A stretch of DNA of 64,000 bases, from NCBI RefSeq assembly GCF_000178995.1, contig NZ_ADVZ01000002.1, positions 1 through 64,000 of the forward strand, read 5' to 3'. Origin of the DNA: Afipia sp. 1NLS2. GTDB taxonomy: Bacteria; Pseudomonadota; Alphaproteobacteria; Rhizobiales; Xanthobacteraceae. The notes beneath the pieces are model-generated. The model was given only the letters and a program-made list of their open reading frames with translations. It was not told the origin of the DNA and searched no databases. This document shows, one piece after another, positions 3,546 to 58,414 of this stretch; position 1 is the stretch's first letter, and each line of letters starts with the position of its first letter. Position numbers and translations under genes: made by a program.

Positions 3546-5057
3546 ATGGAGGCTTTTTCGCTTCTGCTCCATGGCTTCTCGGTGCTGCTCACCTGGAAGA
3601 TCCTTGGCCTGATGTTCGTCGGCCTGATCCTCGGCGTGTTTGTCGGCGTGCTGCCGGGCCTCGGTGGCCCCAACGGCGTCGCCATTCTGTTGCCGATCAC
3701 GTTCTCGATGGACCCGACATCGGCCATCGTGATGCTGTCCTGCATCTATTGGGGCGCGCTGTTCGGCGGCGCGATCACCTCGATCCTGTTCAACATTCCG
3801 GGCGAGGCGTGGTCGGTCGCCACGACATTCGACGGCTATCCGATGGCCCAGCAGGGCAAGGCCGCCGAGGCGCTGACGGCTGCGTTCACCTCGTCGTTCA
3901 TCGGCTCGTTCGTCGCGGTGCTGCTGATTACGTTCGTTGCGCCCGGCATCGCGTCGTTCGCGTTGCGGTTCGGCCCGGCGGAATTCTTCTCGGTCTATCT
4001 CCTGACGTTCTGCTCCTTCGTCGGCCTCGGCCGTGAGGACAAGCACAAGACCATCATCTCGATGGCGCTTGGACTTCTGCTCACCGGCATCGGTATGGAC
4101 ACCGTGTCCGGCACGCTGCGCATGACGTTCGGCTCGACCGACCTGCTTCGCGGCGTGAACTTTCTGGTCGCGGTGATCGGTCTGTTCGGCATCAGCGAAA
4201 TCCTGCTCACCATGGAAGAGCAACTCGCGCTGAAGGGCCACGCCGCCGCCATCAGCATCCGCACCGTGTTCAAGGTGTGGAGGGAGATGCCGCGCTATTG
4301 GGTGACGCTGGTGCGCTCATCGGCGATCGGCTGCTGGCTCGGCATCACCCCGGGCGGCGCGATCGCGGCCTCCTTCATGGGCTACAACCTCGCCAAGCGT
4401 TTCTCCAAGGATCCGGAAGGCTTTGGCAAAGGCAAGATCGAGGGCGTGTTTGCCCCCGAGACGGCGGCGCATGCTTCCGGCACCTCGGCGCTGCTGCCGA
4501 TGCTCGCGCTCGGCATTCCGGGATCGGGCACCGCGGCGATCCTGCTCGGTGGGTTGATGGTGTGGGGCCTCAACCCCGGTCCGCTGCTGTTCGTCGAGCA
4601 CAAGGATTTCGTCTGGGGCCTGATCGCCTCGATGTATCTCGGCAACGTCGTCGGTCTGGTCATCGTGCTTGCGACCGTGCCGCTGTTCGCCTCGGTGCTG
4701 CGCGTCCCGTTCGCGGCGATCGCGCCGATGATCGTGGTGTCCTGCGCGATCGGTGCCTTCGCGATCCAGAACGCGATGTTCGACATCTGGCTGATGCTGC
4801 TGTTCGGCGTGATCGGCTACGTCTTCAAGAAGATCGGGATACCGCTAGCGCCATTGACCTTGGCACTGGTGCTGGGCAGCAGGGCGGAGGATGCCTTCCG
4901 GCTCTCGATGATCTCAGGTTCCGGCTCATTCGGCATCTTCTGGTCGAACTGGCTGGTCGGCTCGATCACCACGCTGTCCTTTATCCTTCTGTTCCTGACG
5001 CAGATCGAGAAGGGTATTTCCAGGATCGGCCGCGTCCTGCGGCCAGCCCAAGCCTGA
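3546..5057 (+). CDS. tctA: Tripartite tricarboxylate transporter large permease TctA
   Basis: A 503-aa polytopic inner-membrane protein with roughly 10-12 hydrophobic segments. It shows the TctA signatures GVLPGLGGPNG (about residues 35-45) and, in the second half, the repeat-related ALGIPGSGTAAILLGGL. Both are glycine/proline-rich loops of the family. It uses an ion gradient to move the carboxylate delivered by TctC. It starts 12 bases after tctB with GAGGAGATATTTCG upstream and is followed by a clear intrinsic terminator. Confidence 0.92.
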   Translation: MEAFSLLLHGFSVLLTWKILGLMFVGLILGVFVGVLPGLGGPNGVAILLPITFSMDPTSAIVMLSCIYWGALFGGAITSILFNIPGEAWSVATTFDGYPMAQQGKAAEALTAAFTSSFIGSFVAVLLITFVAPGIASFALRFGPAEFFSVYLLTFCSFVGLGREDKHKTIISMALGLLLTGIGMDTVSGTLRMTFGSTDLLRGVNFLVAVIGLFGISEILLTMEEQLALKGHAAAISIRTVFKVWREMPRYWVTLVRSSAIGCWLGITPGGAIAASFMGYNLAKRFSKDPEGFGKGKIEGVFAPETAAHASGTSALLPMLALGIPGSGTAAILLGGLMVWGLNPGPLLFVEHKDFVWGLIASMYLGNVVGLVIVLATVPLFASVLRVPFAAIAPMIVVSCAIGAFAIQNAMFDIWLMLLFGVIGYVFKKIGIPLAPLTLALVLGSRAEDAFRLSMISGSGSFGIFWSNWLVGSITTLSFILLFLTQIEKGISRIGRVLRPAQA

Positions 5058-5085
5058 CCCTCCAGACAGGCCTGACTCTCCTGAA

Positions 5086-5113
5086 GGGGCGCGGAATTGC
5101 CGCGCCCCTTTTT
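5086..5113 (+). terminator. Rho-independent terminator of the tct operon
   Basis: GGGGCGCGG at 5086-5094 pairs perfectly with CCGCGCCCC at 5100-5108 around a 5-base loop, followed directly by TTTTT. It lies 28 bases after the tctA stop. Confidence 0.9.
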
Positions 5114-5171
5114 CTCTCGGCGGAAGCCCTCAATTCGCCGAAAGACGGTCGTTTTGGACCATAGAAATTAA

Positions 5172-5200
5172 TTGACCGTATCCAAGTAAGTGCTTACTTC
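5172..5200 (+). promoter_or_regulatory. TetR-type operator overlapping a putative promoter
   Basis: AAGTAAG at 5184-5190 and CTTACTT at 5193-5199 form a perfect inverted repeat with a 2-base centre, ending six bases before the regulator's ATG. A TTGACC box (5172-5177) lies at suitable spacing from a weak -10-like TTACTT (5194-5199), so a bound dimer would block the promoter. This is the usual autoregulatory arrangement for TetR repressors next to RND pumps. Confidence 0.65.
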
Positions 5201-5205
5201 GTCCC

Positions 5206-5907
5206 ATGGCATTCAAGCGCATGAGCGGCGATTCGCGCCGGCGGCAGATACTGGACGCAGCGAAGCAATGCTTCGCGCAGTACGGATTCGCCGGCACCAC
5301 GACGAGGAAAGTGGCAACGGCTGCCTGTATCTCGGAAGGGCTGCTGTTCCGTCATTTCGCCACCAAGGCCGCGCTGCACGCCGAAATCCTGTCGGAGGCC
5401 TGCGAGGCCGATCCCGACCTCAAGCGGCTGCGTGAACTTCAGCCCTCGAGCGAAACGCTCATTATTCTTGTCCGGGAGATGGTCGTCCATTTCCTCGCGA
5501 TCCGGACCCTGCCGAACCGCGAGAAGGCGGAACGGCTTCGCCTGACCGCTTCGAGCCATCTCGACGACGGCGAGTTCGCACGGCTGCTGTTCGAAAAGGT
5601 CGGCGACCTGATCGCGCCTTTATTCATTGCCTCGATCGAGAGTGCCGTCGCCGCAGGCGATGCCGTACCGACCGAGACCAAGCCGATCGACCTGTTCTGG
5701 TTCGTACATCACCTGCTTCATTCGCTCGCGCTGACGCGGCTGCCGGAAACGCCTTCGCTCGATTATCCGGCGGACGATACCCTCGCGAACGAATTGAACG
5801 GTTTCATCCTGCGCGCGCTTGGGGTGAAGGCGGATTTCATTGCCGCCCATCTCAAGAACCCCGCGTCATTCCCAACATCGCAGCATCTTATTCCGGAAAG
5901 TGCCTGA
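5206..5907 (+). CDS. TetR/AcrR family transcriptional repressor
   Basis: A 233-aa regulator. Residues about 11-60 form the TetR DNA-binding domain: RRRQILDAA helix 1, then the GFAGTTTRKVATAACISEGLLFRHF helix-turn-helix core ending in the typical F-x-x-K. The rest is a helical ligand-binding/dimerisation domain. The strong palindrome just upstream suggests autoregulation. The stop is one base from the start of the membrane-fusion gene, so it probably represses its own efflux operon in response to a hydrophobic or toxic ligand. ATG 5206 has no good ribosome site; ATG 5221 is an alternative. Confidence 0.87.
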   Translation: MAFKRMSGDSRRRQILDAAKQCFAQYGFAGTTTRKVATAACISEGLLFRHFATKAALHAEILSEACEADPDLKRLRELQPSSETLIILVREMVVHFLAIRTLPNREKAERLRLTASSHLDDGEFARLLFEKVGDLIAPLFIASIESAVAAGDAVPTETKPIDLFWFVHHLLHSLALTRLPETPSLDYPADDTLANELNGFILRALGVKADFIAAHLKNPASFPTSQHLIPESA

Positions 5908-5908
5908 C

Positions 5909-7117
5909 ATGACCGTTCCTGCCGAAGACGATCCGCATTTGCAGCGGCCTGCCGGTGAAACCGAATCCGCTGCCCATGCGCACAAGCCGGTGCGCCTGCG
6001 CAAATGGATGATCATCGTGGGCGGCGGACTCGCCGTGCTGGTGTTCCTGTTCGTGGGATTCAATGCTTTCCGCGAGCACATGATCGCGCAGTTCTTCGCC
6101 AACATGAAGCCGCCGCCGGTCAGCGTGGCCGTGGTGGACGCCAAGAGCGAAGTGCTGCCGAACCTGATCACGACGATCGGCGATCTCGCCGCCGTGCATC
6201 AGGTGGATGTCTCCGCCGATGTCAGCGGCCGCGTGACGCAGATTCTGTTCACGGCGGGCGCGACGGTGAAAAAGGGCGATCCGCTGGTGCAACTGTTCGA
6301 TGCGCCGGATCAGGCCGATCTCGTCAGCTTCAAGGCGCAGACGCTGAACGCGCAGCTCGCGCTCGACCGCGCCAAGGCGCTGCTCGCCAGATCGTTCGGC
6401 CCGCAGGCGACCGTCGATCAGGCGCAGGCCACTTTCGATCAGGCGAGCGCAAGCGTCGCCAGGACCGAAGCGGTGATTTCGCAGAAGCTCGTTCGCGCTC
6501 CGTTTGACGGACAGCTTGGCGTGCGCCGCGTGGAAGTCGGTCAATATCTGAGCGCAGGCACGCTGATCGTGACGCTGACGGATCTGTCGAAGGTCTACGC
6601 CAACATCACCGTGACGGAAAAGGATCGCGCCATCATCGCGGTCGGGCAGGAGGTCCAGATTCTGGTCGATGCCTATCCGGGCCGCACGTTCGAGGGCAAG
6701 ATCACCACCATCGAGCCGCAGATTTCCTCCGATACACGTAACGTGCGCGTGCAGGCGACTCTCGACAATCCCGAGCATCTCCTGAAGCCGGGCATGTTCG
6801 CCACTGTCTCGATCGTGCTGCCGGCGGAGCCCGCACAGGTGACGCTGCCGGAAACGGCGGTCGATTACACGCTGTACGGCGACTCCGTTTTCCTGGTGAA
6901 GGAGAACAAGGATAAGGACGGCAAGACGTCGCTGACCGCGGAGCGTGTGCCTGTCACCACCGGCATCCGTATCCACGGACGGGTGGCGATCAAGAAGGGC
7001 GTCAATCCCGGCGATCGTGTCGTCGCGGTAGGCCAGCTCAAGCTTCAGTCCGGCGCGGCCATCGAAATTTCGTCCGATCAGCCGCCGCCGATTCCGGCAC
7101 AGCCGCCGCGTTACTGA
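5909..7117 (+). CDS. RND efflux membrane-fusion (periplasmic adaptor) protein, HlyD/AcrA-like
   Basis: A 402-aa adaptor linking an inner-membrane RND pump to an outer-membrane channel. A cytoplasmic N-terminal tail of about 30 residues is followed by one transmembrane helix (about 33-54). Next come the split lipoyl domain (VDVSADVSGRV and later KLVRAPFDGQLG), a helical hairpin between them, and the beta-barrel and membrane-proximal domains. ATG 5909 lies just after the repressor stop. The pump gene starts 19 bases downstream. No outer-membrane partner is in this operon; the TolC-like gene at 45666-47063 is a candidate. Confidence 0.9.
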   Translation: MTVPAEDDPHLQRPAGETESAAHAHKPVRLRKWMIIVGGGLAVLVFLFVGFNAFREHMIAQFFANMKPPPVSVAVVDAKSEVLPNLITTIGDLAAVHQVDVSADVSGRVTQILFTAGATVKKGDPLVQLFDAPDQADLVSFKAQTLNAQLALDRAKALLARSFGPQATVDQAQATFDQASASVARTEAVISQKLVRAPFDGQLGVRRVEVGQYLSAGTLIVTLTDLSKVYANITVTEKDRAIIAVGQEVQILVDAYPGRTFEGKITTIEPQISSDTRNVRVQATLDNPEHLLKPGMFATVSIVLPAEPAQVTLPETAVDYTLYGDSVFLVKENKDKDGKTSLTAERVPVTTGIRIHGRVAIKKGVNPGDRVVAVGQLKLQSGAAIEISSDQPPPIPAQPPRY

Positions 7118-7136
7118 TCAGCCGGAGCCAGCTTTC

Positions 7137-10100
7137 ATGGTCTTTACCGATATTTTCATCAAGCGGCCGATCCTGTCGCTGGTCGTGAGCCTGCTGATCC
7201 TGCTGATCGGCTTCAAGGCCGCGACCAGCCTGCCGATCCGGCAATATCCGAAGCTGTCAAACACGGTGGTCACCGTGACGACAAGCTATCCCGGTGCATC
7301 ACCCGAATTGATGCAGGGCTTCATCACGACTCCGATCGAGCAGGCGGTCGCATCGGCCGAAGGCGTCGATTACATCACCTCGACCTCGGTGCAGGGCACC
7401 AGCACCATTCAGGTGTATGTACGCCTCAACTTCGATCCCAACCAGGCGCTGACCGAGGTTCTGGCGAAGGTGAACTCGGTCAAATATCTCATTCCGAAGG
7501 AATCGAACGACCCGGTCATCACTAAATCCACCGGCCAGACCACAGCCGTGATGTATATCGGCTTCGCCAGTGACGAACTGGGCGGCTCGGCCATCTCCGA
7601 CTATCTGACGCGCGTGATCCAGCCGATCCTGTCCACGGTTGACGGCGTGGCGTCCGCCGACATTCTCGGTGGCCAGACCTTTGCGATGCGCCTGTGGCTC
7701 GATCCCGCGCGCATGGCGGGGCGGGGCGTCACCGCGGCGGATGTTGCGGCGGCGATCCAGGCCAACAACTATCAGGCGGCTGCCGGCCAGACCAAAGGCT
7801 ACTTCATCGTTTCCAACGTCACCACCAACTCCGACCTCAGCGATGTGCAGTCGTTCAAGCGCATGGTCGTGAAGTCGAAGAACGGCGGCCTTGTGCGCAT
7901 GGAAGACATCGCGACCGTCGAACTGGCGGCGCAGAGCAACGATTCCAGCGTGGCGATGAACGGCCAGCACGCCATCTTCATCGGCGTTCAGGCGACGCCG
8001 CAAGGCAACCCGTTGACCATCGTCAAGGGTGTGCGGGCATTGTTCCCGGAAATCGAGCGCAGTCTGCCGCCGACGTTGAAAATGAAGGTCGCCTACGATT
8101 CGACCAAGTTCATTCAGTCGTCGATCGATGAAGTTGAAAAAACGCTCGGCGAAGCCGTGATCATCGTGATCGTGGTGATCTTCCTGTTCCTGGCCTCGTT
8201 GCGCTCAGTGATCATTCCGGTCGTGACCATTCCGTTGTCGTTGATCGGCGTCTGTTCGCTGATGTTGCTCGCAGGCTTCAGTATCAACCTGCTGACGCTG
8301 CTGGCGATGGTGCTCGCCATCGGTCTTGTGGTCGACGACGCGATCGTGGTGGTGGAAAATATTCACCGGCATCTGGAGGAGGGGAAGTCTCCCGTTCAGG
8401 CCTCCATGATAGGCGCGCGAGAAATCGTCGGCCCGGTTATTTCGATGACAATCACGCTCGCTGCGGTGTACGCGCCGATCGGATTCCTCGGCGGTGTCAC
8501 CGGCGCGCTGTTCCGTGAGTTCGCCTTCACGTTGGCCGGTTCCGTGATCGTGTCGGGCATTATCGCGCTGACGCTGTCGCCGATGATGTGTTCGATTCTG
8601 CTCACGCATGTCGAGCAGGGATGGTTTGCCCGCAAAGTCGATGCGGTTTTCCGTTCGGTGACGGATTGGTACGGCAACCGTCTCGACCGCTCGCTGGACT
8701 ATCGGCCCATCACAGCGTTGTTCGCGCTGGTGATCCTGTTTCTCGTTGGATTCCTCTATACCCACTCAAAAGCGGAGCTTGCTCCCGAGGAAGATCAGGG
8801 CATTCTGTTCTCGCTGACCAAGGCGCCCAAATATGCCAACATCGACTATGTCAATTATTACGGCGACCAGCTCGGCAAGGTGTTCGGCAGTTTCCCTGAA
8901 ACCGACCTGACCTTCGTGCTGAACGGCACACCCGTCGCTAACCAGGGCATCGCGGGCATGATCCTGAAGCCATGGGATGAGCGCAAGCGTTCCTCCACCG
9001 CGATGAAGCAGGAGGTGCAGGGCGCGGTCAGCAAGATCACCGGCACGCAGGCCTTCGTGTTCAACCTTCCGGCGCTGCCGGGCGGCCCGGGCGGCCTGCC
9101 TGTGCAGATGGTGATCAATTCCACCAGCGACTTCCGGCAGGTCTATCAGGAGATGGAGAAGCTGAAGGCTGCCGCGCGCAAGAGCGGCCTGTTCATCGTC
9201 TCGGACAGCGACCTTGCCTTCGACCAGCCGGTGGTGCGGGTGAACATCGACCGCAACAAGGCGAATGAACTCGGCGTGACGATGCTGAATATCGGCAACA
9301 CGCTGGCGGTCGCGCTCGGCGGCAACTACATCAACCGCTTCAACCTGCAGGGACGTTCCTATCAGGTGATCCCGCAGGTGCCACGTGCCCTTCGTCTGTC
9401 GCCGGAAGCTCTCAACGGCTATTACGTGTCCGCTGCCAATGGAGACCAGATTCCGCTCTCGACTCTGGTGGACATCAAGACCGGCACTGACCCCAACGCG
9501 CTGACCCACTTCAACCAGCTCAATTCCGCGACCTTCCAGGCCGTGCCGATGCCGGGCGTGACCGTGGGCACCGCCGTGGACTTCCTGGAGAAGCAGGCAC
9601 AGCAACTGCCGTCCGGTTTCGGACACGACTATCTGGCGGATGCGCGCCAGTACAAACAGGAAGGCAACCAGCTCGCGGTGGCGTTCGGCTTCGCGTTGAT
9701 CATCATCTTCCTGGTGCTGGCTGCGCAGTTTGAAAGTATCCGCGACCCGCTGGTGATCCTGATCTCGGTGCCGATGGCGATCAGCGGCGCGCTGGTGCCG
9801 CTGTTCTTCGGCGTCGCCACGATCAACATCTACACGCAGGTCGGCCTGCTGACGCTGATCGGCCTGATCAGCAAGCACGGCATTCTGATGGTGGAGTTCG
9901 CCAATGAGCTCCAGTTGAAGGAAGGCCTTGGCAAGCGTGAAGCCATCGAAAAGGCGGCGCGCGTGCGCCTTCGTCCGATCCTGATGACGACGGCGGCGAT
10001 GGTGACTGGCCTCATTCCGCTGCTGACGGCGAGCGGCGCGGGCGCGGCGAGCCGCTTCTCCATCGGTCTTGTCGTCGTCGCGGGCATGACCATCGGCACG

Positions 10101-50003: not shown

Positions 50004-50555
50004 GTGCGCGGCCAGGAACATGAATGGACCGACCTGATGCGGTCGGCCAATGCGGGTGACACCGCCGCCTACCATCGTCTCCTGTCGGCCATCACGCCGG
50101 TCTTGAGGGCGGCGGCGCGGCGCGGTCTGTTGCGTGCCGGGCAATCGCCCGATCAGTCCGAGGATATCGTGCAGGATACTTTGCTCGCCGTGCATCTGAA
50201 GCGACACACATGGGACGCCAAGGCGCCGTTCGCGCCGTGGCTGTTCACCATCGCGCGCAACAAGCTGATCGACGCGCTGCGCCGCCGCGGCCGCCGGGTG
50301 TTCTTGGATATCGACGATTTCACCGACGTGCTTCCCGGCGAGGAAGCGCCGGAAGTGACGAACGGCGTGGACATCGAGGCGCATCTGAAGACGCTGCCGC
50401 AGCGCCAGCGCGACGTGCTGCAATCGATTTCGGTTGACGGGCTGTCGATTACCGAGACGGCGAAGAAGTTCGAGATGAAGGAAGGTGCGGTGCGGGTGGC
50501 GCTTCACCGCGGACTTTCGACCCTCGCGGCGCGTGCACGGAAAGACCTGATATGA
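50004..50555 (+). CDS. ECF RNA polymerase sigma factor (SigF type, with NrsF-like partner)
   Basis: A 183-aa sigma factor. Region 2 (about 20-90) has DQSEDIVQDTLLAVHLKRHTWD and FAPWLFTIARNKLIDALRRR, the -10 recognition and core-binding part. Region 4 (about 125-175) has LPQRQRDVLQ and the helix-turn-helix SITETAKKFEMKEGAVRVALHRGLS. Start is GTG 50004 after GAGGGA. Its stop overlaps the start of the DUF1109/NrsF gene by four bases. In Caulobacter the equivalent pair responds to metals and oxidative stress. Confidence 0.9.
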   Translation: MRGQEHEWTDLMRSANAGDTAAYHRLLSAITPVLRAAARRGLLRAGQSPDQSEDIVQDTLLAVHLKRHTWDAKAPFAPWLFTIARNKLIDALRRRGRRVFLDIDDFTDVLPGEEAPEVTNGVDIEAHLKTLPQRQRDVLQSISVDGLSITETAKKFEMKEGAVRVALHRGLSTLAARARKDLI

Positions 50556-51190
50556 AAACCGACGATCTCATCGCAAGCCTTGTCGCCGATCACCCTTCGC
50601 GGATGCAGCCGGTCTGGCTCTGGCTGCTGGCGGGCATTTGCGCGGCGTTGCCGCTGTCGGCGGTGCTGTTCATGGTGAGCCTCGGCCCGCGGCCGGATAT
50701 CGCGACGGCGATCTACAATCCGTTCTTCGATCTGAAATTCCTGGTCACGCTGGCGCTGGCATCGAGCGCCGCGGCGTTGAGCCTGCATCTGTCGCGTCCG
50801 AATGCCTCGCTGCATGGCTGGATGTGGCTGCTCGCGCTGCCCGTAGGCCTGCTCGGCATCGGCATCGTCGCGGACTTCGCCGTGCCTCAGCGCGTGAACT
50901 GGGAGGGCCGGCTGGTCGGGTCTAACTCGATGGCCTGCATGTCGTCGATTCCGCTGTTCTCGGCACCGTTCCTGATCGCCACGCTGTTGATGCTGCGCAA
51001 GGGAGCGACTTCGCACCCGATGCTGCTGGGTGCGCTGGCGGGATTGATGTCGGCGGGGCTGGGCGCGACGCTCTATGCCTCGCATTGCGCAGACGATTCG
51101 CCCTTGTTCGTGGCGACCTGGTACACGCTGGCGGCGGCTTTCGTGACGCTCATCGGGGCGATGGCCGGGCGCCGGGTCTTGCGGTTCTAG
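50552..51190 (+). CDS. nrsF: NrsF-type anti-sigma factor (DUF1109)
   Basis: A 212-aa polytopic inner-membrane protein with about six hydrophobic helices (roughly 22-43, 62-78, 87-107, 124-145, 150-168 and 184-204). The length and topology match DUF1109/NrsF anti-sigma factors, which hold the sigma factor at the membrane. Two cysteine-bearing segments, SNSMACMSSIPLFS and ASHCADDSP, correspond to the conserved Cys positions important for sensing in NrsF. The ATG overlaps the sigma stop (ATGA). Its stop lies in a 21-base tandem duplication shared with the convergent gene. Confidence 0.87.
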   Translation: MKTDDLIASLVADHPSRMQPVWLWLLAGICAALPLSAVLFMVSLGPRPDIATAIYNPFFDLKFLVTLALASSAAALSLHLSRPNASLHGWMWLLALPVGLLGIGIVADFAVPQRVNWEGRLVGSNSMACMSSIPLFSAPFLIATLLMLRKGATSHPMLLGALAGLMSAGLGATLYASHCADDSPLFVATWYTLAAAFVTLIGAMAGRRVLRF

Positions 51191-51214
51191 GAACGGGTCT
51201 TGCGGTTCTAGGAA
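51173..51214. repeat. Perfect 21-base tandem duplication at a gene junction
   Basis: The 21 bases at 51173-51193 (starting CGGGTCTTGC, ending TTCTAGGAA) are repeated exactly at 51194-51214. Copy 1 holds the nrsF stop TAG, and copy 2 holds the stop of the convergent DUF2336 gene. In a single copy the two stops would overlap on opposite strands (CTAG), so the duplication separates the genes. Confidence 0.95.
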
Positions 51215-52314
51215 GCCGCCGCAGGGATCGTGCCGGCCTCGCGCATCCGGTAGAAGCGCAGCACCTGCTGGGCGGTGGCGGGCCGCAGCAGGTTGAAGTG
51301 GTCGTGATATTCGGCAAGGCTTGTCGAGACTCCAACGTCGCCGACCGCATGGCGCGCCTTCAGGATCTTTTCGACCGTCGCCCAGCTGAGGCCCGCGACC
51401 TTCGCCAGCACCAGCAGCCCTTCCGCGCGTGGCTCGATCATCATGTTCTCGACGGTGAGGATCGGCACGTCGGTCATCAGCGCAATGGCGGTGGAGACTT
51501 CCTCGACGCGGCCGTGTTCGGCGAAGGCCGCCACCTGCGCCTCGTTCAGGCGGCCGTCGCTGTGCAGCAGCTTGACGAGCGTCTGCGCGCGGATGGTGTC
51601 TTCGGTTTTCGCGGCGCTGGCCTGGATCGCGACATCCTTCACCACGGCGGCGACTTCGGCGGCGTAATGCGGGTTGGCCTCATTAAGTCTGGTGCGAACC
51701 GCGTGGGAGGCCTTGGCTACCAGTTGCAGATAAAAATGCCGCGGAATGGGGCGCAGGCCAAGGCAGGTCGCGATGCCGTCGTGCCCCTCGGCGCGCATGA
51801 TCAGGCGCGAGTATCCATTGTCGGAGAATTCCGCGCCGGGATTGTTGATCGTGCTCTCAACCACATCGTCATTACCGCGCTCGACCAGCACATCGGTGAC
51901 GGCGTGGGTCAGGACCTTGCGCTTCGAAATCGCCAGCAGATGACCCTGGCTCTTTTTTCGCGCGTTCTCGACCAGCGCTGCTTCGTTGAGCTTTTCGGAA
52001 TGGGACAGGACAGGGGCCGCAATTTCGATCATGTCGTCGAACGCGAGCGTACGGATCACACCGGCCGGGGCTTCCGCCACCTGTGCGAGACGCTCGGCCA
52101 GCAGTTGCTTCGCCGATTGCTCCATCTTGAGCAGGAGGCACTGGAATACATCGTCGAACAGCGCGATCTGTTCATCCGAATAGGCGGCAGGCGCGTACAG
52201 AAACAGATCGGTGACGCGGCGGAGGGTTTCGACGCGGCGTGCTACCGTTCCATGGGTCAGTGCGGCTTGAAGATCTGCCAACAGACTGGTGGCGTTGGCG
52301 GCGTGTGCACTCAT
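51208..52314 (-). CDS. DUF2336 domain protein
   Basis: A 368-aa soluble, mainly helical protein of a family common in Rhizobiales. Helical repeats at about 10-120 (ADLQAALTHGTVARRVETLRR; QIALFDDVFQCLLLKMEQSAK) are followed by NARKKSQGHLLAISKRKVL and VDVLVERGNDDVVESTINNPGA-like text typical of DUF2336. The second half is a repeat-like helical region. The start at ATG 52314 is chosen over longer frames, which would run into the upstream diguanylate cyclase gene. No enzymatic motif is seen; DUF2336 proteins often accompany signalling genes, here a GGDEF protein 55 bases upstream. Confidence 0.8.
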   Translation of the reverse strand: MSAHAANATSLLADLQAALTHGTVARRVETLRRVTDLFLYAPAAYSDEQIALFDDVFQCLLLKMEQSAKQLLAERLAQVAEAPAGVIRTLAFDDMIEIAAPVLSHSEKLNEAALVENARKKSQGHLLAISKRKVLTHAVTDVLVERGNDDVVESTINNPGAEFSDNGYSRLIMRAEGHDGIATCLGLRPIPRHFYLQLVAKASHAVRTRLNEANPHYAAEVAAVVKDVAIQASAAKTEDTIRAQTLVKLLHSDGRLNEAQVAAFAEHGRVEEVSTAIALMTDVPILTVENMMIEPRAEGLLVLAKVAGLSWATVEKILKARHAVGDVGVSTSLAEYHDHFNLLRPATAQQVLRFYRMREAGTIPAAAS

Positions 52315-52369
52315 GACTTCTGTCCCAAACGGCAACCCGCCGACATTCTCGCGGAGGGAAAACAACATT

Positions 52370-53509
52370 CTAAGCGTGCTCGATTCTGTTTCGTCCACGG
52401 TCCTTGGCACGATACAGCGCCATGTCGGCCCGCAGTAGAAGGTTCTCCGGTGCCTCGTCGTGGCGCAGCGTGGCCACGCCTGCCGACATCGTCACGGCGA
52501 TGCCGGGCGAAATCGAATTCCAGTCGATGTCCGCGATGATCATGCGCAGGCGATCCGCCACCTTCTCGGCGGTGTCCTCGGCCGTCTCCGGCATGATCAG
52601 CAGAAATTCCTCGCCGCCATAGCGGCCGAATTTATCGATCGCCCGCACGTTGGCGAACATGGTGATAGCGAAGGTGCGCAGCACTTCGTCGCCCACGGGA
52701 TGGCCATAAAGATCGTTGATCTTCTTGAAGAAGTCGAGGTCGATCAGTGCGATGGAGCAGGGGCTTTTGGTGCGGATCGCGCGTTCGCTCTCCTCGACCA
52801 GCGCATGCATGATGCTGCGTCGATTATGTGCGCCGGTCAGTTCGTCGAATTCGGCGAGTTCCTCGATGCGCCGATAGGCTTCCTTCAGCGCCAGTCCCTG
52901 CGTGTAGAAGGATTCTCTGAGCGCGCTGGAGAACATGCCGACCATCATGCAGCGGCCGATGGTGACCACGAACAGGAACAGGGTGGCGAAGCGCTCGGCG
53001 AAGGTGCCGTGCGGCATGCTGATCGGAATGGTGGTGAGCAGGAACAGCCACGCAAGACCTGCCGTGAGCACGCCCCATGCAATGCCGATCTGCAGCATGG
53101 TCGAGCGCAGCGAGCCGAGCGCCACGATCACGAACAGCGAGCAGAGAAACACGCATCCGACTTCCGGCACGATATACATGAACGAGAGCATCAGCAGGAA
53201 GCTAACGCCCATCTGCTGGAGGACGAGATAATGATCCTTGAAGCGGTCGTTGAAATGCGCGTCGGAGAGAAGGACGAAGCAAGTGACGCTGAGCAGCGCG
53301 CAGACGAGGAACACCGGCGGAGTGGTGAGGCTGGTGGTGCCGGCAAGGGCGTAGAGCGCCAGCACCGCGGTATCGGTCAGGTAGCTGAGCGCCATGATGG
53401 TCTGGATCTGGCGGCGCTGGACGGCGCGGCGCGGCAGCACGTCCGATGCGGGCGCATCGGCTGAACTCAGTTGATCCATCAGTTTGAGTGGAAAGACGGC
53501 TCCCCACAT
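52370..53509 (-). CDS. Membrane-bound diguanylate cyclase (GGDEF)
   Basis: A 379-aa protein that makes the second messenger c-di-GMP from two GTP. The first 210 residues contain about six transmembrane helices (MASE-like sensor region). A GGDEF domain follows (ELAEFDELTGAHNRRSIM start) with the active site GGEEF. An inhibitory RxxD site (RAID) lies five residues before it, so feedback control by c-di-GMP is likely. An alternative ATG at 53479 would remove 10 residues; neither start has a clear ribosome site. The upstream gap to the next sigma gene contains a long inverted repeat. Confidence 0.92.
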   Translation of the reverse strand: MWGAVFPLKLMDQLSSADAPASDVLPRRAVQRRQIQTIMALSYLTDTAVLALYALAGTTSLTTPPVFLVCALLSVTCFVLLSDAHFNDRFKDHYLVLQQMGVSFLLMLSFMYIVPEVGCVFLCSLFVIVALGSLRSTMLQIGIAWGVLTAGLAWLFLLTTIPISMPHGTFAERFATLFLFVVTIGRCMMVGMFSSALRESFYTQGLALKEAYRRIEELAEFDELTGAHNRRSIMHALVEESERAIRTKSPCSIALIDLDFFKKINDLYGHPVGDEVLRTFAITMFANVRAIDKFGRYGGEEFLLIMPETAEDTAEKVADRLRMIIADIDWNSISPGIAVTMSAGVATLRHDEAPENLLLRADMALYRAKDRGRNRIEHA

Positions 53510-53825
53510 ATCGTAAAACCCCGCAGCTCTTGAGTAAATTAGTCAGCAAAGCGTTTAGGTTTGGTATCATTTGGCGGTACCGGCCGGTCTTTGCGAGAAA
53601 CGCCGGTACCGCTCGAAATCTAAAAATATATAATTATATCAATGTCTTACATTTGAGCTTTGTGTTTTCGGCCCGAGGTGCGGCCGTAAAATGCGAGCAG
53701 GATCGGCGCGGCTTGCCCAACTCCTGCTTCGAGGGCATTTTCGCTGCCTTCCGGGCAGCGATGCCGAAAGACGTTTTTATCGAACCCGATCACGTCCCCG
53801 TGCGACCAACCTTGCGAGATAGCCA
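53510..53825. other. Intergenic region between diguanylate cyclase and ECF sigma gene
   Basis: A 316-base non-coding gap. It contains a perfect 11-bp inverted repeat, GCGGTACCGGC (53574-53584) and GCCGGTACCGC (53602-53612), with a 17-base loop. An AT-rich block lies around 53620-53640 (AAAATATATAATTATATC), lower in GC than its surroundings, as in a promoter. The repeat could be an operator for a dimeric regulator or a stem in the leader. No protein-coding frame was convincing. Confidence 0.55.
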
Positions 53826-54395
53826 TTGAGTGCAACACAGGCCGCTTCGGACGAATCCCTGATCGGCCGCATTGCCCAAGGCGATCGTCTCGCCATGCAG
53901 GTTCTCTACGGACGGCACCATGTCCGGGTCTATCGGTTCGCGTTGCGTCTGGTGCGGAAGGAACAGATCGCCGAAGATCTCATCAGCGAGGTGTTTCTGG
54001 ACGTATGGCGTCAGGCCGGGAAGTTCGAAGGGCGCTCCGCCGTTTCGACCTGGCTCTTGGCGATCACGAGGTTCAAGGCGTTGTCGGCGCTGCGCAAGAA
54101 GAAGGACGCGGAACTCGACGACGAAACAGCAGCGGCGATCGAGGACACGTCCGACAATCCGGAGGTGACGGTCGCCAAGAAGGATACCGGGAATGTGCTG
54201 CGCAACTGTCTGGCAAAGCTGTCGCAGGACCACCGGGAGATCGTCGATCTGGTCTACTACCACGAGAAGTCCGTGGAGGAGGTCGCCGAGATCGTCGGCA
54301 TCCCGGAGAACACGGTGAAGACGCGCCTGTTCTATGCGCGCAAGAAACTCGCCGAGCTTCTGAAGGAAGCCGGCGTGGAGCGAGGCTGGCCATGA
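53826..54395 (+). CDS. ECF RNA polymerase sigma factor (RpoE type)
   Basis: A 189-aa sigma factor. Region 2 spans about 20-85 (VYRFALRLVRKEQIAEDLISEVFLDVWRQA and STWLLAITRFKALSALRKKK). Region 4 spans about 125-180, with LSQDHREIVDLVYYHEKSVEEVAEIVGIPENTVKTRLFYARKKL, a complete helix-turn-helix. Start is TTG 53826; GTG and ATG options are out of frame or later. Its stop overlaps the anti-sigma ATG (ATGA), so the two are translationally coupled. Confidence 0.9.
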   Translation: MSATQAASDESLIGRIAQGDRLAMQVLYGRHHVRVYRFALRLVRKEQIAEDLISEVFLDVWRQAGKFEGRSAVSTWLLAITRFKALSALRKKKDAELDDETAAAIEDTSDNPEVTVAKKDTGNVLRNCLAKLSQDHREIVDLVYYHEKSVEEVAEIVGIPENTVKTRLFYARKKLAELLKEAGVERGWP

Positions 54396-55054
54396 CGACG
54401 AGAGACAAGGAATTGGCCGAGCCCGGCAAGATCGAGGCGCTGCTGCCCTGGCGGGCGGCGGGCACCCTGAGCGCCGAAGAGACGCGGCTGGTTGATGCCG
54501 CGCTCGCGAAGGATTCCGCGCTCGCCAAGCAATACGAGATCATCAAGGACGAACTGGCCGAAACCGTGCTTCTGAACGAAGACCTCGGCGCGCCGTCCAC
54601 CCGCGCGCTGGAAAAATTGTTCGCGGCGATCGAGGCGGAGCCTGCGCGTGGCGCGTCGACGTCATCGGGATTGATGGCGCGCCTGGGGACGTTCTTCAAC
54701 GGATGGTCGCCACGCACGCTCGGCTGGGCGGCGGCTGCGGCAATGCTCGCGCTGGTGCTGCAGGCCGGCATCATCACCACGGCGGTGATGAAGCAGGGCG
54801 GCGGATATCAGACGGCGTCGTCCGAGGCTTCCACGGCGGGCACGCGTCTTCTGGTTGGCTTCAAGTCCGACGCCACGTTCGATCAGATCACCGCCTTTCT
54901 CGTGGCCTATCACGCCTCCGTCGTGGCGGGGCCGCAGGCGGGCATGTTCACGGTGAAATTCGGCGACACGACGCTCGCAGCCAAGGACGCGGAGCAGCTC
55001 ATCGCCAAGGTCAAGGCGGACAAGACCGTGGCATTTGCCGCTGCGACACAGTGA
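54392..55054 (+). CDS. Transmembrane anti-sigma factor with propeptide-like periplasmic domain
   Basis: A 220-aa membrane protein. The cytoplasmic part (about 1-105) begins with an anti-sigma-like helical segment (IEALLPWRAAGTLSAEETRLVDAALA). It lacks the Cys/His of zinc-binding ZAS domains, apart from position-equivalent residues I could not find. One transmembrane helix (about 109-133) follows. The periplasmic domain (about 151-218) has the beta-alpha-beta pattern RLLVGFKSDATFDQITAFLVAYHASVVAGP-FTVKF-LIAKVKADK-VAFA, resembling subtilisin propeptides (I9 family). The downstream protease has a similar segment, so this protein may be a target or inhibitor of that protease. Confidence 0.72.
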   Translation: MTTRDKELAEPGKIEALLPWRAAGTLSAEETRLVDAALAKDSALAKQYEIIKDELAETVLLNEDLGAPSTRALEKLFAAIEAEPARGASTSSGLMARLGTFFNGWSPRTLGWAAAAAMLALVLQAGIITTAVMKQGGGYQTASSEASTAGTRLLVGFKSDATFDQITAFLVAYHASVVAGPQAGMFTVKFGDTTLAAKDAEQLIAKVKADKTVAFAAATQ

Positions 55055-55090
55055 TTTCTCGCATTTCCTTCATACGGAACGGGTGAAGGC

Positions 55091-56515
55091 ATGACGAAGC
55101 GACACGATCCATTCAACGGCCCGAAGATCTGGCTGCTTGCGGCGGCCATCGGATTGGCGTCCCCAGCCATCACACCGGCGCGGGCGCAGATGCGCAATCT
55201 CAGTGTCGGTGGCCCCAGCATCCATATCGGCCCCCGGATTCCGGTCAATCCGAGCGTGCGCTATTCGCCGAACCTGCATTACGGCCCGGTGATCGAGGAC
55301 CGCATCGATGGCGGTCCGCCGCGTTCGCGCAAGCCGCCGCCGGAGCGTGGGTCGAAGAAGCCTTCGCGCACCACCGTCGCGGCCGATCCGACCTACGTGC
55401 CGAACGAAGTGCTGATCGAGATCGCGGGTCAGCCGACCGACGCGCAGGTGCGGGACATCGCGAAGCGTTACAAGCTGCGGCAGGTGCAGTCGCAGCACAT
55501 CGCACTGCTCGATACCACGTTCTATCGCTGGCGGATTCCGGACGGGCGCTCGGTCGACACCGTGGTGAAGCAGTTGAGCGCGGATCGCGGCATCACATCG
55601 GTGCACCGCAATTCGATCTTCCGTTTGCAGGATGAGCAGGGCGGCAAAGCGCCGTTCCAGTATGCGCTGGCGAAATTGCGGCTGCCGGAAGCGCAGGCGA
55701 TCTCGACCGGTGAGAAAGTCAGAGTTGCGGTGATCGATTCCGGCATCGACACCGACCATCCCGAGCTTGCGGGCTCGATCGCGGCCACGTTCGACGCGCT
55801 CGACAGCAAGGAGACCGCGCATGCGCACGGCACCAGCATCGCGGGCATCATCGCTGCGCACGCGACCCTCAAGGGCGCGGCTCCGGCCGCGAAGCTGCTG
55901 GCGATCCGCGCGTTCGGGGAAGCCAAGTCGGGTGCGTCGAGCACCACCTTTGTTGTGCTGAAAGGCCTCGATTATGCCGCTTCAAACGGCGCGCAGATCA
56001 TCAACATGAGTTTCGCTGGCCCCCGCGACAAGGTGGTCGAACGTGGGCTTGCGGCAGCGGCGGCGAAGAACATCGTGCTGGTGGCGGCGGTCGGCAATGC
56101 CGGGCCGAAATCCGCGCCGCTGTTTCCGGGCGCCGATCCGCACGTCATCGGTGTCACCGCGACCGATGCTTCCGATGCGATTTTCGCGAAAGCCAATCAG
56201 GGCGCCTATGTCGCGGTGGCAGCACCCGGCGTCGACATTCTCGCGCCGCTGCCCGGCGGCAAATACGGCGTCTCGTCCGGCACGTCGTTGTCGGCGGCCT
56301 ATGTCAGCGGGCTCGCGGCCTTGATGCTGGCGCGCAATCCCGCGCTCACCGCCGACGAAGTGCGGCAGGCGCTGGTACAATCCGCCCGCGACCTTGGCCC
56401 GGCCGGGCGCGACGACCGGTTCGGGGCGGGGGAGGCCGATGCCTTTGCCGCCGTCTCGGCGGTGGCGGCGCCTGTTGCCACCGCGTCGGAGCCGCTCAAG
56501 CCCGCGCCGCGTTAA
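55091..56515 (+). CDS. Exported S8 subtilase-family serine protease
   Basis: A 474-aa exported protease. It has a Sec signal peptide (IWLLAAAIGLAS core, ARAQ cleavage region) and a Pro-rich linker (about 40-100). A propeptide-like domain spans about 103-178 (VPNEVLIEIAGQPTDAQVRDIAKRY). The peptidase domain carries the complete triad D216 (VIDSGID), H246 (AHGTSIAGIIA) and S399 (GTSLSAAYVSG), plus the oxyanion Asn N336 in VGNAGP. It is therefore probably active in the periplasm or outside the cell. It lies 36 bases after the anti-sigma gene, in an apparent sigma-anti-sigma-protease operon. Confidence 0.9.
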   Translation: MTKRHDPFNGPKIWLLAAAIGLASPAITPARAQMRNLSVGGPSIHIGPRIPVNPSVRYSPNLHYGPVIEDRIDGGPPRSRKPPPERGSKKPSRTTVAADPTYVPNEVLIEIAGQPTDAQVRDIAKRYKLRQVQSQHIALLDTTFYRWRIPDGRSVDTVVKQLSADRGITSVHRNSIFRLQDEQGGKAPFQYALAKLRLPEAQAISTGEKVRVAVIDSGIDTDHPELAGSIAATFDALDSKETAHAHGTSIAGIIAAHATLKGAAPAAKLLAIRAFGEAKSGASSTTFVVLKGLDYAASNGAQIINMSFAGPRDKVVERGLAAAAAKNIVLVAAVGNAGPKSAPLFPGADPHVIGVTATDASDAIFAKANQGAYVAVAAPGVDILAPLPGGKYGVSSGTSLSAAYVSGLAALMLARNPALTADEVRQALVQSARDLGPAGRDDRFGAGEADAFAAVSAVAAPVATASEPLKPAPR

Positions 56516-56752: not shown

Positions 56753-57094
56753 ATGTCTGAAGCTTTTCCGAAACCGGTTCAGGCGGCGGGCCGCAGCGTG
56801 GTGGCGCGCTGGCGCATCCTGGCGCAGCAGCGGCTCGATCATCTCACCGAGCTTTATGAGAGCGGGCGCTGGAAGCTCTATCACACCGAAAGCGATTTCC
56901 TCGCGATGGTGCACGAGGCGCGCACGGTGCTGAAGGTCTGGCAGGATCTGGCGCCGCCCGATGCCGCGCTCGACAAGCCGATCGAGGTTGCGATTGCGCA
57001 GACCGATGCAACCGGGGAGAGTCTTCCCGGAAGCCTCGCCAAGCCGGGCCTACTGGACCGTGTTGAGACCCAGTACGATTTTCGGAAATCCTGA
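56753..57094 (+). CDS. TIGR03809-like conserved protein
   Basis: A 113-aa soluble protein: a basic N terminus (RSVVARWRILAQQRLDHLTELYESGRWKLYH) then a helical region with FLAMVHEARTVLKVW. It resembles a small family, TIGR03809 as I recall it, found in Bradyrhizobiaceae next to a TAT-exported parallel-beta-helix protein, as here. No enzymatic motif is visible. ATG 56753 is chosen because upstream extension lacks family similarity. Its end overlaps the convergent TIGR03808-like gene by 45 bases. Confidence 0.7.
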   Translation: MSEAFPKPVQAAGRSVVARWRILAQQRLDHLTELYESGRWKLYHTESDFLAMVHEARTVLKVWQDLAPPDAALDKPIEVAIAQTDATGESLPGSLAKPGLLDRVETQYDFRKS

Positions 57095-58414
57095 CGCGCC
57101 GACCACCGCGAGATCGCCAGTGATCGGCTTGTCGTGATCGAAGCCGACAATCGCGCCGCGCGGCGCGTTCGAGATCAGGTTGCCGCTGATGAGCGTCTTG
57201 CCGGTGCCGTCCACCGCCGAGACGCCGATGCCGACGAAGGCGTCGCGGATGATGTTGTTGGCGATGTTGATGTCGCGCAGATATTTGCCCCAGCCCGCGC
57301 TGATGCCGCAGACCGGAGCGTTCTCGATCACGTTGCCGGTCACGTTGCTGTCGGCCTCGACGTAAATCCCGACGCCGCCATGATCGGTATTCGATCCCGG
57401 ATAGCGCCGCGTTTTGGTGTTGCGGATAATGTTGCCCTGCACGATGGCGAGGCGGCCGCCCTCGTTAAAATTCGCCACTGACACGCCCGTGGAGCAGCCA
57501 TCGACCACGTTGTTGGCGATGATCGCGCCTTCAAAGGCGAATTCCGAATAGAGCGCGACCTCGCGCGCGTCGGTGACGGTGTTGCCGACGATCTGGATGT
57601 TGGAGGCGGAGTTGCCGCGCACGCCGGAATAGTCGCAATCGCGGATGCGGTTGCCGCGCACGATCACGTTGTTGGCGCGAAAGGCGTTGATGGCGTTGCC
57701 GTACTGCCCTGTTCCGCCGGGGCCTGCCTTGATATTCTCGATGCGGTTGTCGACGACGATGGTGCCATCATCGCCCGCAGCCGAGCGGACGATTTCGATG
57801 CCGTTCTCGGAAGCGCCCTGGATGGTGTTCTGCGCGATCAGCAGGCCCAGCGCATCGACGCTGACGATGGCGGTGGCGGAGGTCTGGCGGATGGTGGTGT
57901 TGCGGATATCGCCCGAGCAGGTTTCGAGCCGGATGGCGTTGCGGCCGCTGCCGGCAATGTCGCAATCGCCGATGTGGAAGTCGCGGCAGGCCTGCAGGCT
58001 GACGAGCCCGCGCCGTTCGGGCAGGTCATGGCCGCCGCCGTCGAGCACAAGGCCCTTCAGGTTGAGGCCGTCCGCGCCCTTGGCGGTGAGAAGCGATGTG
58101 CCGCTGCCGGTGAATTCCAGCCGCGTGGCCCCGCGCGCGCCGACAATCTGCGCGCCGCTCGGCAGTTCGAGTTCGCCGGTGCGATAGATTCCCGGCCGGA
58201 GCACTAGCGGCATGCGCGCGGCGGCGGTGGCGTAGATCGCGCGCTGCAACGGAATGGTCTGGTCGTCCGGGCTGTTGTGCTTGACGCCGAGTTGGCCCGC
58301 ATCGCGGCCGAGCGACGACATCGCGGGCGCGGCTTTGGCGATGCCGCGCTCGAGCAGCAGCGCGGCGGCTGACACGCTGAACAAACCCATGATGCGGCGG
58401 CGGGTGAAATCCAT
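57050..58414 (-). CDS. TAT-exported parallel beta-helix repeat protein (TIGR03808-like)
   Basis: A 454-aa protein with a twin-arginine signal (FTRRRIMGLFSVSAAALLL). A pectate-lyase-like right-handed beta-helix follows: dozens of Asn-rich rungs such as NNVIVRGNRIRDCDYSGV, IQIVGNTVTDAREVAL and IIANNVVDGCSTGVSV. N-terminal PLQRAIYATAAARMPLVLRPGIYRTGEL is typical of the helix cap of this group. It has no recognisable catalytic set. TAT export suggests folding or cofactor loading before export. The partner gene at 56753-57094 overlaps its end by 45 bases. Confidence 0.82.
   Translation of the reverse strand: MDFTRRRIMGLFSVSAAALLLERGIAKAAPAMSSLGRDAGQLGVKHNSPDDQTIPLQRAIYATAAARMPLVLRPGIYRTGELELPSGAQIVGARGATRLEFTGSGTSLLTAKGADGLNLKGLVLDGGGHDLPERRGLVSLQACRDFHIGDCDIAGSGRNAIRLETCSGDIRNTTIRQTSATAIVSVDALGLLIAQNTIQGASENGIEIVRSAAGDDGTIVVDNRIENIKAGPGGTGQYGNAINAFRANNVIVRGNRIRDCDYSGVRGNSASNIQIVGNTVTDAREVALYSEFAFEGAIIANNVVDGCSTGVSVANFNEGGRLAIVQGNIIRNTKTRRYPGSNTDHGGVGIYVEADSNVTGNVIENAPVCGISAGWGKYLRDINIANNIIRDAFVGIGVSAVDGTGKTLISGNLISNAPRGAIVGFDHDKPITGDLAVVGASGFPKIVLGLNTVQ

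Follow-up and report, generated by a model that had tools for sequence, protein, structure and literature searches.

Positions 1 to 64,000 of contig NZ_ADVZ01000002.1 from Afipia sp. 1NLS2, a stretch hereafter called the window, carry at 53826-56515 three plus-strand genes encoding an extracytoplasmic function (ECF) sigma factor, an anti-sigma factor with one transmembrane segment and an exported subtilase. The anti-sigma factor ends in a C-terminal domain (CTD, approximately residues 150-218) for which sequence profiles and predicted structures make remote homology to a fervidolysin-type subtilase prodomain very probable, and the three genes may tentatively be read as one autoregulated signalling module. 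Coordinates and gene order agree with those of an initial annotation of this DNA. The operon has the following features.

53781..53806, plus strand: ECF-type promoter CGAACC-N16-CGAC, 19 nt 5' of the TTG start
53826-54395, plus strand: ECF sigma factor with a TTG start (NCBIfam PRK12515)
54392-55054, plus strand: anti-sigma factor, 220 aa (weak NCBIfam antisigma match, E 2.8e-6, below the cut-off)
54734..54790, plus strand: transmembrane segment, anti-sigma residues 115-133 (hydropathy window; AlphaFold2 helix 107-133)
54806..54820, plus strand: conserved juxtamembrane motif YQTAS, residues 139-143; candidate site of cleavage within the disordered linker
54836..55051, plus strand: putative periplasmic domain (CTD) resembling a subtilase prodomain, anti-sigma residues 149-220, lacking the active-site tail (profiles and fold)
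55091-56515, plus strand: exported S8 (subtilisin-like) peptidase, 474 aa (Peptidase_S8 at 207-447, E 4e-41)
55394..55627, plus strand: the subtilase's own prodomain, residues 102-179, β-α-β-β-α-β (PF22148, AlphaFold2, superposition)
55619..55630, plus strand: prodomain tail FRLQ, residues 177-180, family form [YF]-x-L-[QSN] (74-protease alignment)
55709..56431, plus strand: S8 catalytic domain with D216, H246 and S399 (Pfam; triad alignment)

The start of the anti-sigma gene overlaps the stop codon of the sigma gene, and the subtilase gene begins 36 bp after the anti-sigma gene. The sigma factor scores 345 bits against NCBIfam PRK12515 (cut-off 236) and contains Sigma70_r2 (E 2e-17) and Sigma70_r4_2 (E 7e-15). 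The AlphaFold2 model of the anti-sigma factor has a helical N-terminal domain, a transmembrane helix and a separate β-α-β-β-α-β CTD; the protein is devoid of Cys and hence of zinc-finger cysteines. Its helical domain, single transmembrane segment, predicted periplasmic domain and position directly after an ECF sigma gene characterize it as a putative membrane-bound ECF anti-sigma factor.

Within the order 297 genomes were sampled, and 86 of them, counting that of the window itself, contain an anti-sigma homologue. The other 85 supplied 80 loci, drawn from 79 genomes; G048, G075, G096, G169, G192 and G234 were left out, as were second, weaker places in G014 and G273. The resulting alignments, which include the window, hold 79 CTDs (without L105 and L111) and 74 protease prodomains (without L058, L105 and L106).

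The third gene had been described initially as encoding an exported protease with a complete D-H-S triad, and this description holds: apart from the Peptidase_S8 match, D216, H246 and S399 are invariant in all 74 aligned proteases and an N-terminal signal peptide is recognised by eye. Residues 90-171 match the Fervidolysin_NPro-like family PF22148 (E 3.3e-6). The model of the subtilase superposes on unprocessed pro-Tk-subtilisin and pro-subtilisin E with Z 46 over 334-339 residues, covering prodomain and catalytic domain, the former from residue 104 onwards. Fold, triad, secretion signal and prodomain together thus indicate an S8 peptidase. In the aligned proteases the last prodomain strand leads into QPN-x-x-[YF]-x-L-[QSN], and the tail carries Y or F in 73 of the 74, L in 51 and Q in 43. 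The prodomain tail of a subtilase leads into the active site, and inhibition of the cognate protease is a well-established role of prodomains. In the genome of the window (99.9% complete, 10 contigs) there is a single PF00082 match, which is the subtilase of the operon, and a single M50 match.

Resemblance of the anti-sigma C-terminal domain to a subtilase prodomain

The initial annotation had noticed a common β-α-β pattern in segments of the anti-sigma factor and the protease. BLASTP of the CTD against the protease revealed no true similarity. Profile-profile comparison nonetheless bore the pattern out: hhalign aligned the 79 CTDs with the 74 prodomains over 63 columns in register, with a score of 34.1 (Prob 89.6; E 1.9e-6 for this single comparison). 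The controls scored at most 16.9 for 200 column shuffles, 13.1 for the reversed profile and 13.4 for the catalytic domain. With CTDs and prodomains taken from disjoint halves of the loci, scores of 32.9-35.7 were obtained in four splits. As a single sequence, the window CTD scored only 17.1 against the prodomain profile.

Searched in isolation, the window CTD matches PF22148 with E 0.029 and 15.2 bits, short of the curated cut-off of 21 bits. This family is matched at E≤1 by 26 of 70 CTDs (best 5.2e-5), more than match any other family. A distant set of 28 CTDs, the window among them, yields 11 matches to PF22148 at the same threshold (best 1.5e-6), again ahead of every other family. Set A3 leaves out nine of the 79 CTDs, and set A5 the near copies L140, L152 and L294. 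Inhibitor I9 (PF05922) was not among the families listed in the CTD scans, one of which listed 25 of 28 families. A profile of the distant CTDs built without the window scored 39.2 against the prodomains of the order (shuffles at most 16.5) and 25.9 against those of the distant loci, compared with 17.3 against SPOR; the CTDs of the order scored 20.1 against the distant prodomains.

The SPOR domain was considered as an identity of the CTD because 12 of the 70 CTDs match it at E≤1 (best 9e-5; none for the window CTD). It was rejected because the profile match, with a score of 20.7, extends over 27 columns that are out of register. The SPOR control comprised 29 domains from the same bacterial family, with the partial L178 left out. 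A recent duplication of the prodomain within the locus was likewise rejected: when 182 CTDs were run singly with phmmer against the N-terminal regions of 179 S8 proteins, 16 weak rows were obtained, none of them pairing a CTD with the S8 N-terminal region of its own locus. Searching P0001 against PDB sequences with phmmer gave only a chance match to GMP reductase, and the first scan of the genome contigs with P0001 gave no match.

The predicted structures agree with the profiles. The CTD is modelled with strands at 151-157, 175-182, 185-190 and 213-218 and helices at 163-172 and 197-209, and the prodomain with strands at 102-111, 130-137, 142-148 and 168-179 and helices at 117-126 and 155-163, so that the likeness proposed initially is recovered as the same β-α-β-β-α-β order in both models. 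The predicted local distance difference test (pLDDT) score is at least 90 for CTD residues 151-218 and for the prodomain, and lies at 90-96 across anti-sigma residues 151-220. A Foldseek search with the CTD ranked the subtilisin BPN' prosegment (1spb_P) second, with probability 1.00 and E 0.015; the first row was a NikR, and no match had an E below 0.001. VIA-align placed three PC1/3 prodomain entries on top with Z 9.1, 8.4 and 7.8, the best of them with a root-mean-square deviation of 2.4 over 69 residues. Only the first of these stands clearly apart, because other ferredoxin-like folds reach Z 7.7. Fold by itself would be insufficient, and it is the combination with the profile evidence that makes remote homology very likely.

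What the CTD mostly lacks is the tail. In the alignment, anti-sigma residue 218 falls on the P of the prodomain QPN, and the window CTD stops two residues later, without an active-site tail. The CTDs end at most two residues past the QPN-P column in 54 of 79 cases and at most six past it in 70, with seven or eight residues in the remaining nine. Since the last residue of the tail lies at +7, those 70 are too short to hold it, and an aromatic residue past the QPN-P column is found in none of the 79. In 5 of 15 CTD-bearing loci sampled at the level of the phylum, three outside the class and two inside, the last residues of the domain are LAEP[IL], a prodomain-like ending. Among the loops of the CTD, conservation is highest in a GP..GG hairpin. 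Mirror-tree partial correlations of the CTD distances were 0.27 with the catalytic domain, 0.15 with the anti-sigma N-terminal domain, 0.07 with the sigma factor and -0.06 with the prodomain; this is a weak signal, as sigma factor and catalytic domain give 0.53 and the species tree is still in the distances.

Conservation, linker motif and promoter

A gene for an S8 peptidase of the subtilase family lies near the sigma and anti-sigma genes in 76 of the 80 loci of the order (70 downstream, 6 upstream), and the four loci without one (L052, L068, L087 and L091) are all cut by contig ends. A search of the class beyond this order matched 24 of 385 genomes, a count that includes the window's own. 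Of the 20 loci from these orders 15 carry the CTD, and 14 of those have an S8 gene, with a sigma gene found in 13. Related anti-sigma factors without the CTD have an S8 gene in one of five cases (L153). The named relatives, the best 80 of 268 (Afipia, Bradyrhizobium, Tardiphaga, Nitrobacter and others), show sigma factor and CTD in all 80 and the subtilase in 76. The CTD profile alone matches in 40 of 398 genomes of the phylum. Twenty phylum-level places comprise the 15 CTD-bearing loci, 11 of which have an S8 gene (7/11 outside the class, 4/4 inside), and five false positives (L301, L302 and L304-L306) that look by eye like glycine hydroxymethyltransferase. Genomes G303, G593 and G611 of the class and G915, G964 and G1007 of the phylum were left out.

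Between the transmembrane segment and the CTD lies a linker that is predicted to be disordered (pLDDT below 50 for residues 136-145). The sole conserved element in it is [FY]-[EQ]-T-A-S, with G as the next residue in 38 of 79. Among the 79 anti-sigma factors the first position is F or Y in 75, and T, A and S are found in 58, 73 and 55, respectively. The motif scores 1165, whereas 20 sets of shuffled linkers reach 663 at best, and its first position takes 75 of the 102 aromatic residues present in the 1995 residues of the 79 linkers. Conserved to at least 90%, A142 belongs to eight nearly invariant residues that stand beside three invariant ones. The motif resembles the prodomain tail in its order of an aromatic residue, any residue, T or L, and A or Q. 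Subtilisins favour an aromatic residue at P4 and a hydrophobic one at P1. The form with F or Y recurs in 9 of the 14 S8-linked loci of other orders and in 9 of the 11 S8-linked phylum-level loci, and outside the class the linker reads YRTL, YQTL, YRTF or YRVL in 5 of 7 S8-linked loci. L153, whose anti-sigma factor has a different periplasmic domain but an S8 neighbour, shows LEVASGG at the place of the motif, a single case.

The promoter 5' of the sigma gene is probably autoregulatory. The pattern GAACC-N15..18-CG[AT]C is present in 71 of 79 sigma upstream regions, 19-52 nt before the sigma gene (L069 and L072, which have no sigma start, are not counted). The family form is a sharply conserved TGAACC-N16-CG[AT]C, of which CGAACC in the window is a variant. 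The dyad GAACC-N17-GAC occurs in 64 of 79 upstream regions, and three shuffles gave no dyad above 7. The 80 loci contain 133 occurrences of TGAACC-N14..18-CG[AT]C, against 7 in the reversed sequences. A looser pattern was found near the sigma gene in 56 of the 80 named relatives, a lower share than the 71 of 79 in the loci of the order. Within the own genome the pattern scan gave 33 matches compared with 22 for the backward pattern, and the regulon is therefore not readable from such a scan.

Additional promoter copies lie 5' of recurrent exported proteins: a 12-member cluster of large open reading frames (ORFs), nine small ORFs and others. The ORFs behind the copies were picked mechanically, and some of the 72 rows are the sigma factor's own sites or wrong frames. 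From the cluster two ORFs were tested, one having DUF7929 and the other belonging to no family; a BA14K-like protein (E 7e-13) is encoded by the single small ORF tested. Near the module in L075, L078, L083, L091, L093, L098, L103, L108 and L109, TGAACC-N16-CGAC precedes large exported ORFs that belong to one cluster. The cluster ORFs near the module are candidate surface proteins of the regulon.

The surroundings of the operon in the window include a second ECF system just upstream, with a sigma gene at 50004-50555 and an NrsF-type anti-sigma gene at 50552-51190 (PF06532, E 5e-51). Between the two systems lie a gene for a DUF2336 protein at 51208-52410 and, on the minus strand, one for a diguanylate cyclase at 52370-53509 (GGDEF, E 9e-41). 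Downstream of the operon, a right-handed beta-helix protein with a Tat-like N-terminus by eye is encoded on the minus strand at 57050-58414 (E 1e-25).

Related systems and possible roles of the prodomain-like domain

A serine protease gene beside ECF26 sigma genes is already known from Sinorhizobium meliloti, where SMa0142 is activated by RpoE6 according to the available text of PMC6180224. The same text likens the C-terminal domains of the EcfR proteins to that of B. subtilis RsiW and calls the activation mechanism of the S. meliloti ECF26 sigma factors hypothetical. As far as that text goes, RpoE6-EcfR6-SMa0142 resembles the trio in the window, with an ECF sigma factor, a one-transmembrane anti-sigma factor and an adjacent serine protease gene that is a sigma target. 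When the ORFs of the unannotated S. meliloti pSymA record were assigned by gene order, the protease ORF matched the S8 profile of the window family (E 4.8e-70). The protease gene is divergent, however, unlike the operon in the window, and the sigma factors are only remotely similar (E 3.7e-16). The EcfR6 ORF yields no match to the CTD profile at E≤10 and differs by eye in its C-terminal part, so the CTD does not qualify as an EcfR6-type domain. The promoters also differ, the consensus extracted from PMC6180224 being GGAATA/GT, as opposed to TGAACC/CGAC here. A sister layout of ECF sigma factor, S8 protease and anti-sigma factor is seen at 22426-25287 of L189 (S. meliloti pSymA) and at 2946-5979 of L153; its S8 protein has a Gly/Asp-rich N-terminus, and its anti-sigma domain is unrelated, with a 'CREF' stretch shared by eye.

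Compared with other membrane anti-sigma systems, the window shares with RseA/DegS/RseP a one-transmembrane anti-sigma factor with a periplasmic domain, and its genome has an M50 (RseP-type) match; the difference is that the proposed site-1 protease here would be the subtilase of the operon, recruited by the prodomain-like domain. The available text of PMC8999054 describes carboxypeptidase, subtilase and CHAT neighbours for ECF54, which works without an anti-sigma factor. What both have in common is the presence of subtilases and of caspase-like (CHAT) proteins near an ECF sigma gene, whereas the anti-sigma factor is found only here.

From the side of the proteases, the CTD is like the PF22148, subtilisin and PC1/3 prosegments in its β-α-β-β-α-β fold and in-register profile. 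It is unlike prodomains in that it belongs to a membrane anti-sigma factor instead of preceding a catalytic domain in cis, and in mostly lacking the tail. POIA1-type propeptide-like inhibitors (1itp by Foldseek, 1v5i by VIA-align) show that a fold like that of a prodomain can act on a subtilase in trans, although POIA1 is a soluble inhibitor and not an anti-sigma factor. Stand-alone inhibitors of the POIA1 type retain the tail. The entry 3a3o is, by its title, a solved complex in which a subtilisin is bound to a propeptide shortened by five residues at its C-terminus. Among the open-access matches listed, so far as their text was available, no description of a prodomain-like anti-sigma domain was found, and none is given in the available text of PMC6180224, PMC8999054, PMC7406223 and PMC8103513; the main ECF reclassification lay outside the search and may contain one in print. 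Protease terms were looked for in PMC3420878, where none occur. The neighbourhood of serine protease and ECF26 sigma factor is thus known, and what appears new, unless it is already in print, is the prodomain-like domain in the anti-sigma factor, which EcfR6 does not have.

A tentative interpretation, to which we give slightly less than an even chance, is that the CTD serves for docking. The CTD would be a captured prodomain that has kept its docking on the subtilase and lost its plugging of the active site, and it would recruit the operon's own protease. The recruited subtilase might then make a dedicated site-1 cut in the linker, at [FY]-x-T-A|S or close to it, after which the M50/RseP-type protease of the cell would finish the anti-sigma factor. 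The freed sigma factor would transcribe its own operon and genes for exported or surface proteins. The signal could be whether the protease is free or occupied, for example by exported client proteins or by its own released prodomain. In favour of this interpretation are the homology and fold of the CTD with its occasional LAEP[IL] ending, the linkage to an S8 gene, the single S8 and M50 matches of the genome, the missing tail, the conserved and tail-like linker motif, the promoter before the sigma gene, the RpoE6 control of the S. meliloti protease gene, the 3a3o complex and, weakly, the mirror-tree correlations. A more specific version is held with greater reserve: that the anti-sigma factor captured a tail-stripped prodomain as a receptor bringing a dedicated subtilase to a tethered motif, with the protease as sensor and trigger, and with exchange for a caspase-like partner in some Proteobacteria.

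Several observations weigh against docking followed by cleavage. The linker motif is not universal, since [FY]xTA[ST] is found in 65 of the 80 named relatives (13 of the other 15 have TAA) and 5 of the 14 S8-linked loci of other orders have a linker without the aromatic residue, such as LVAASG; S8-linked loci lacking the F/Y form read LVAASG, VTASG, QLAG, LLSG or WQLQSG. In four Bradyrhizobium loci (L212, L221, L222 and L245) sigma factor, anti-sigma factor and CTD are kept with no S8 gene within approximately 2-3 kb, a 34-residue S8 relic being left in L222. The CTD-bearing anti-sigma gene at 5008-5772 of L149 has neither S8 nor C14 in 10.8 kb of sequence and no sigma gene by phmmer, and a second copy in the same genome (L148) does have an S8 gene. 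Four loci outside the class carry a caspase-like (C14) peptidase instead of S8, so that S8 is not the exclusive partner of the domain. This peptidase is adjacent in L307 (C14, E 2e-39; 4153-5007) and L297 (by eye; approximately 4888-7242) and lies 1.9 kb away in L298 (1253-3001) and 2.5 kb away in L295 (379-2025); the linker motif is present in one of these four loci and missing in three. As to geometry, the N of the prodomain QPN is not conserved in the CTD, and the GP..GG hairpin lies opposite the termini, remote from the part with which a prodomain, once docked, faces the active site. Cleavage in cis would also need the chain to double back, because the linker runs toward the domain and the prodomain tail away from it. 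Finally, an operon-encoded protease would give positive feedback, and a brake is therefore needed.

A less likely explanation, for which there may be about one chance in four, is that the regulon has the protease chiefly as one of its outputs, which processes exported surface proteins under the same promoter, with the CTD as a prodomain-derived sensor of something else and general envelope proteases cutting the anti-sigma factor. For example, the sensor might respond to released prodomain, to peptides or to a ligand from the envelope at the GP..GG hairpin. The promoter motif in front of exported proteins near many loci speaks for this explanation, as do the caspase-like partners and protease-less loci; S. 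meliloti also fits, since SMa0142 is under RpoE6 control, on the available text, and EcfR6 carries a different domain. It leaves unexplained, however, the linker motif and the prodomain likeness beside a subtilase in all 76 uncut loci of the order.

Unlikely, and placed below the output explanation, is a mode of action close to that of the initial annotation, in which the CTD binds and inhibits the protease, and occupancy or activity of the latter controls the sigma factor via conformation or protection of the anti-sigma factor with no cut in the linker. The homology of the CTD to a prodomain, the general inhibitory role of prodomains and the single S8 match in the genome agree with it. Tight inhibition by the CTD is so far not supported, as 70 of the 79 CTDs fall short of the tail end that reaches the active site and none has the tail aromatic; the tail retained by POIA1-type inhibitors points the same way, and the conserved linker motif would be left without a role. 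The docking step is common to both models, and it is the missing tail that makes inhibition less likely and a docking module the more natural reading of a mostly tail-less domain. We accordingly favour docking and cleavage over inhibition. What stands of the interpretation first given to the locus is the remote homology and common fold of CTD and prodomain, and the presence in the operon of an exported and catalytically complete protease, which is also the one S8 match of the genome.

Convergence on a ferredoxin-like fold (SPOR, ACT, RAM or others), with the CTD as a generic sensor unrelated to prodomains, is already disfavoured and improbable: the SPOR matches, the many ferredoxin-like folds at Z 6.5-7.7 (level with some prodomains), the lack of a Foldseek match below 0.001 and of own-locus phmmer matches would fit it, but they are outweighed by the in-register prodomain alignment, the prevalence of PF22148 among the CTD matches, the prodomains on top of the structural matches and the score of the distant CTDs far above their shuffles.

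For most membrane anti-sigma factors it is, in our judgement, still largely a question which protease cuts first and by what means it locates its target. A widespread module that brings its own candidate protease, a candidate prodomain-derived receptor and a candidate cleavage motif makes this question testable with few point mutants. A prodomain-like lock beside a subtilase suggests direct communication between protease and lock. If this is true, the uses of subtilase prodomains would extend from chaperones and inhibitors to signalling receptors.

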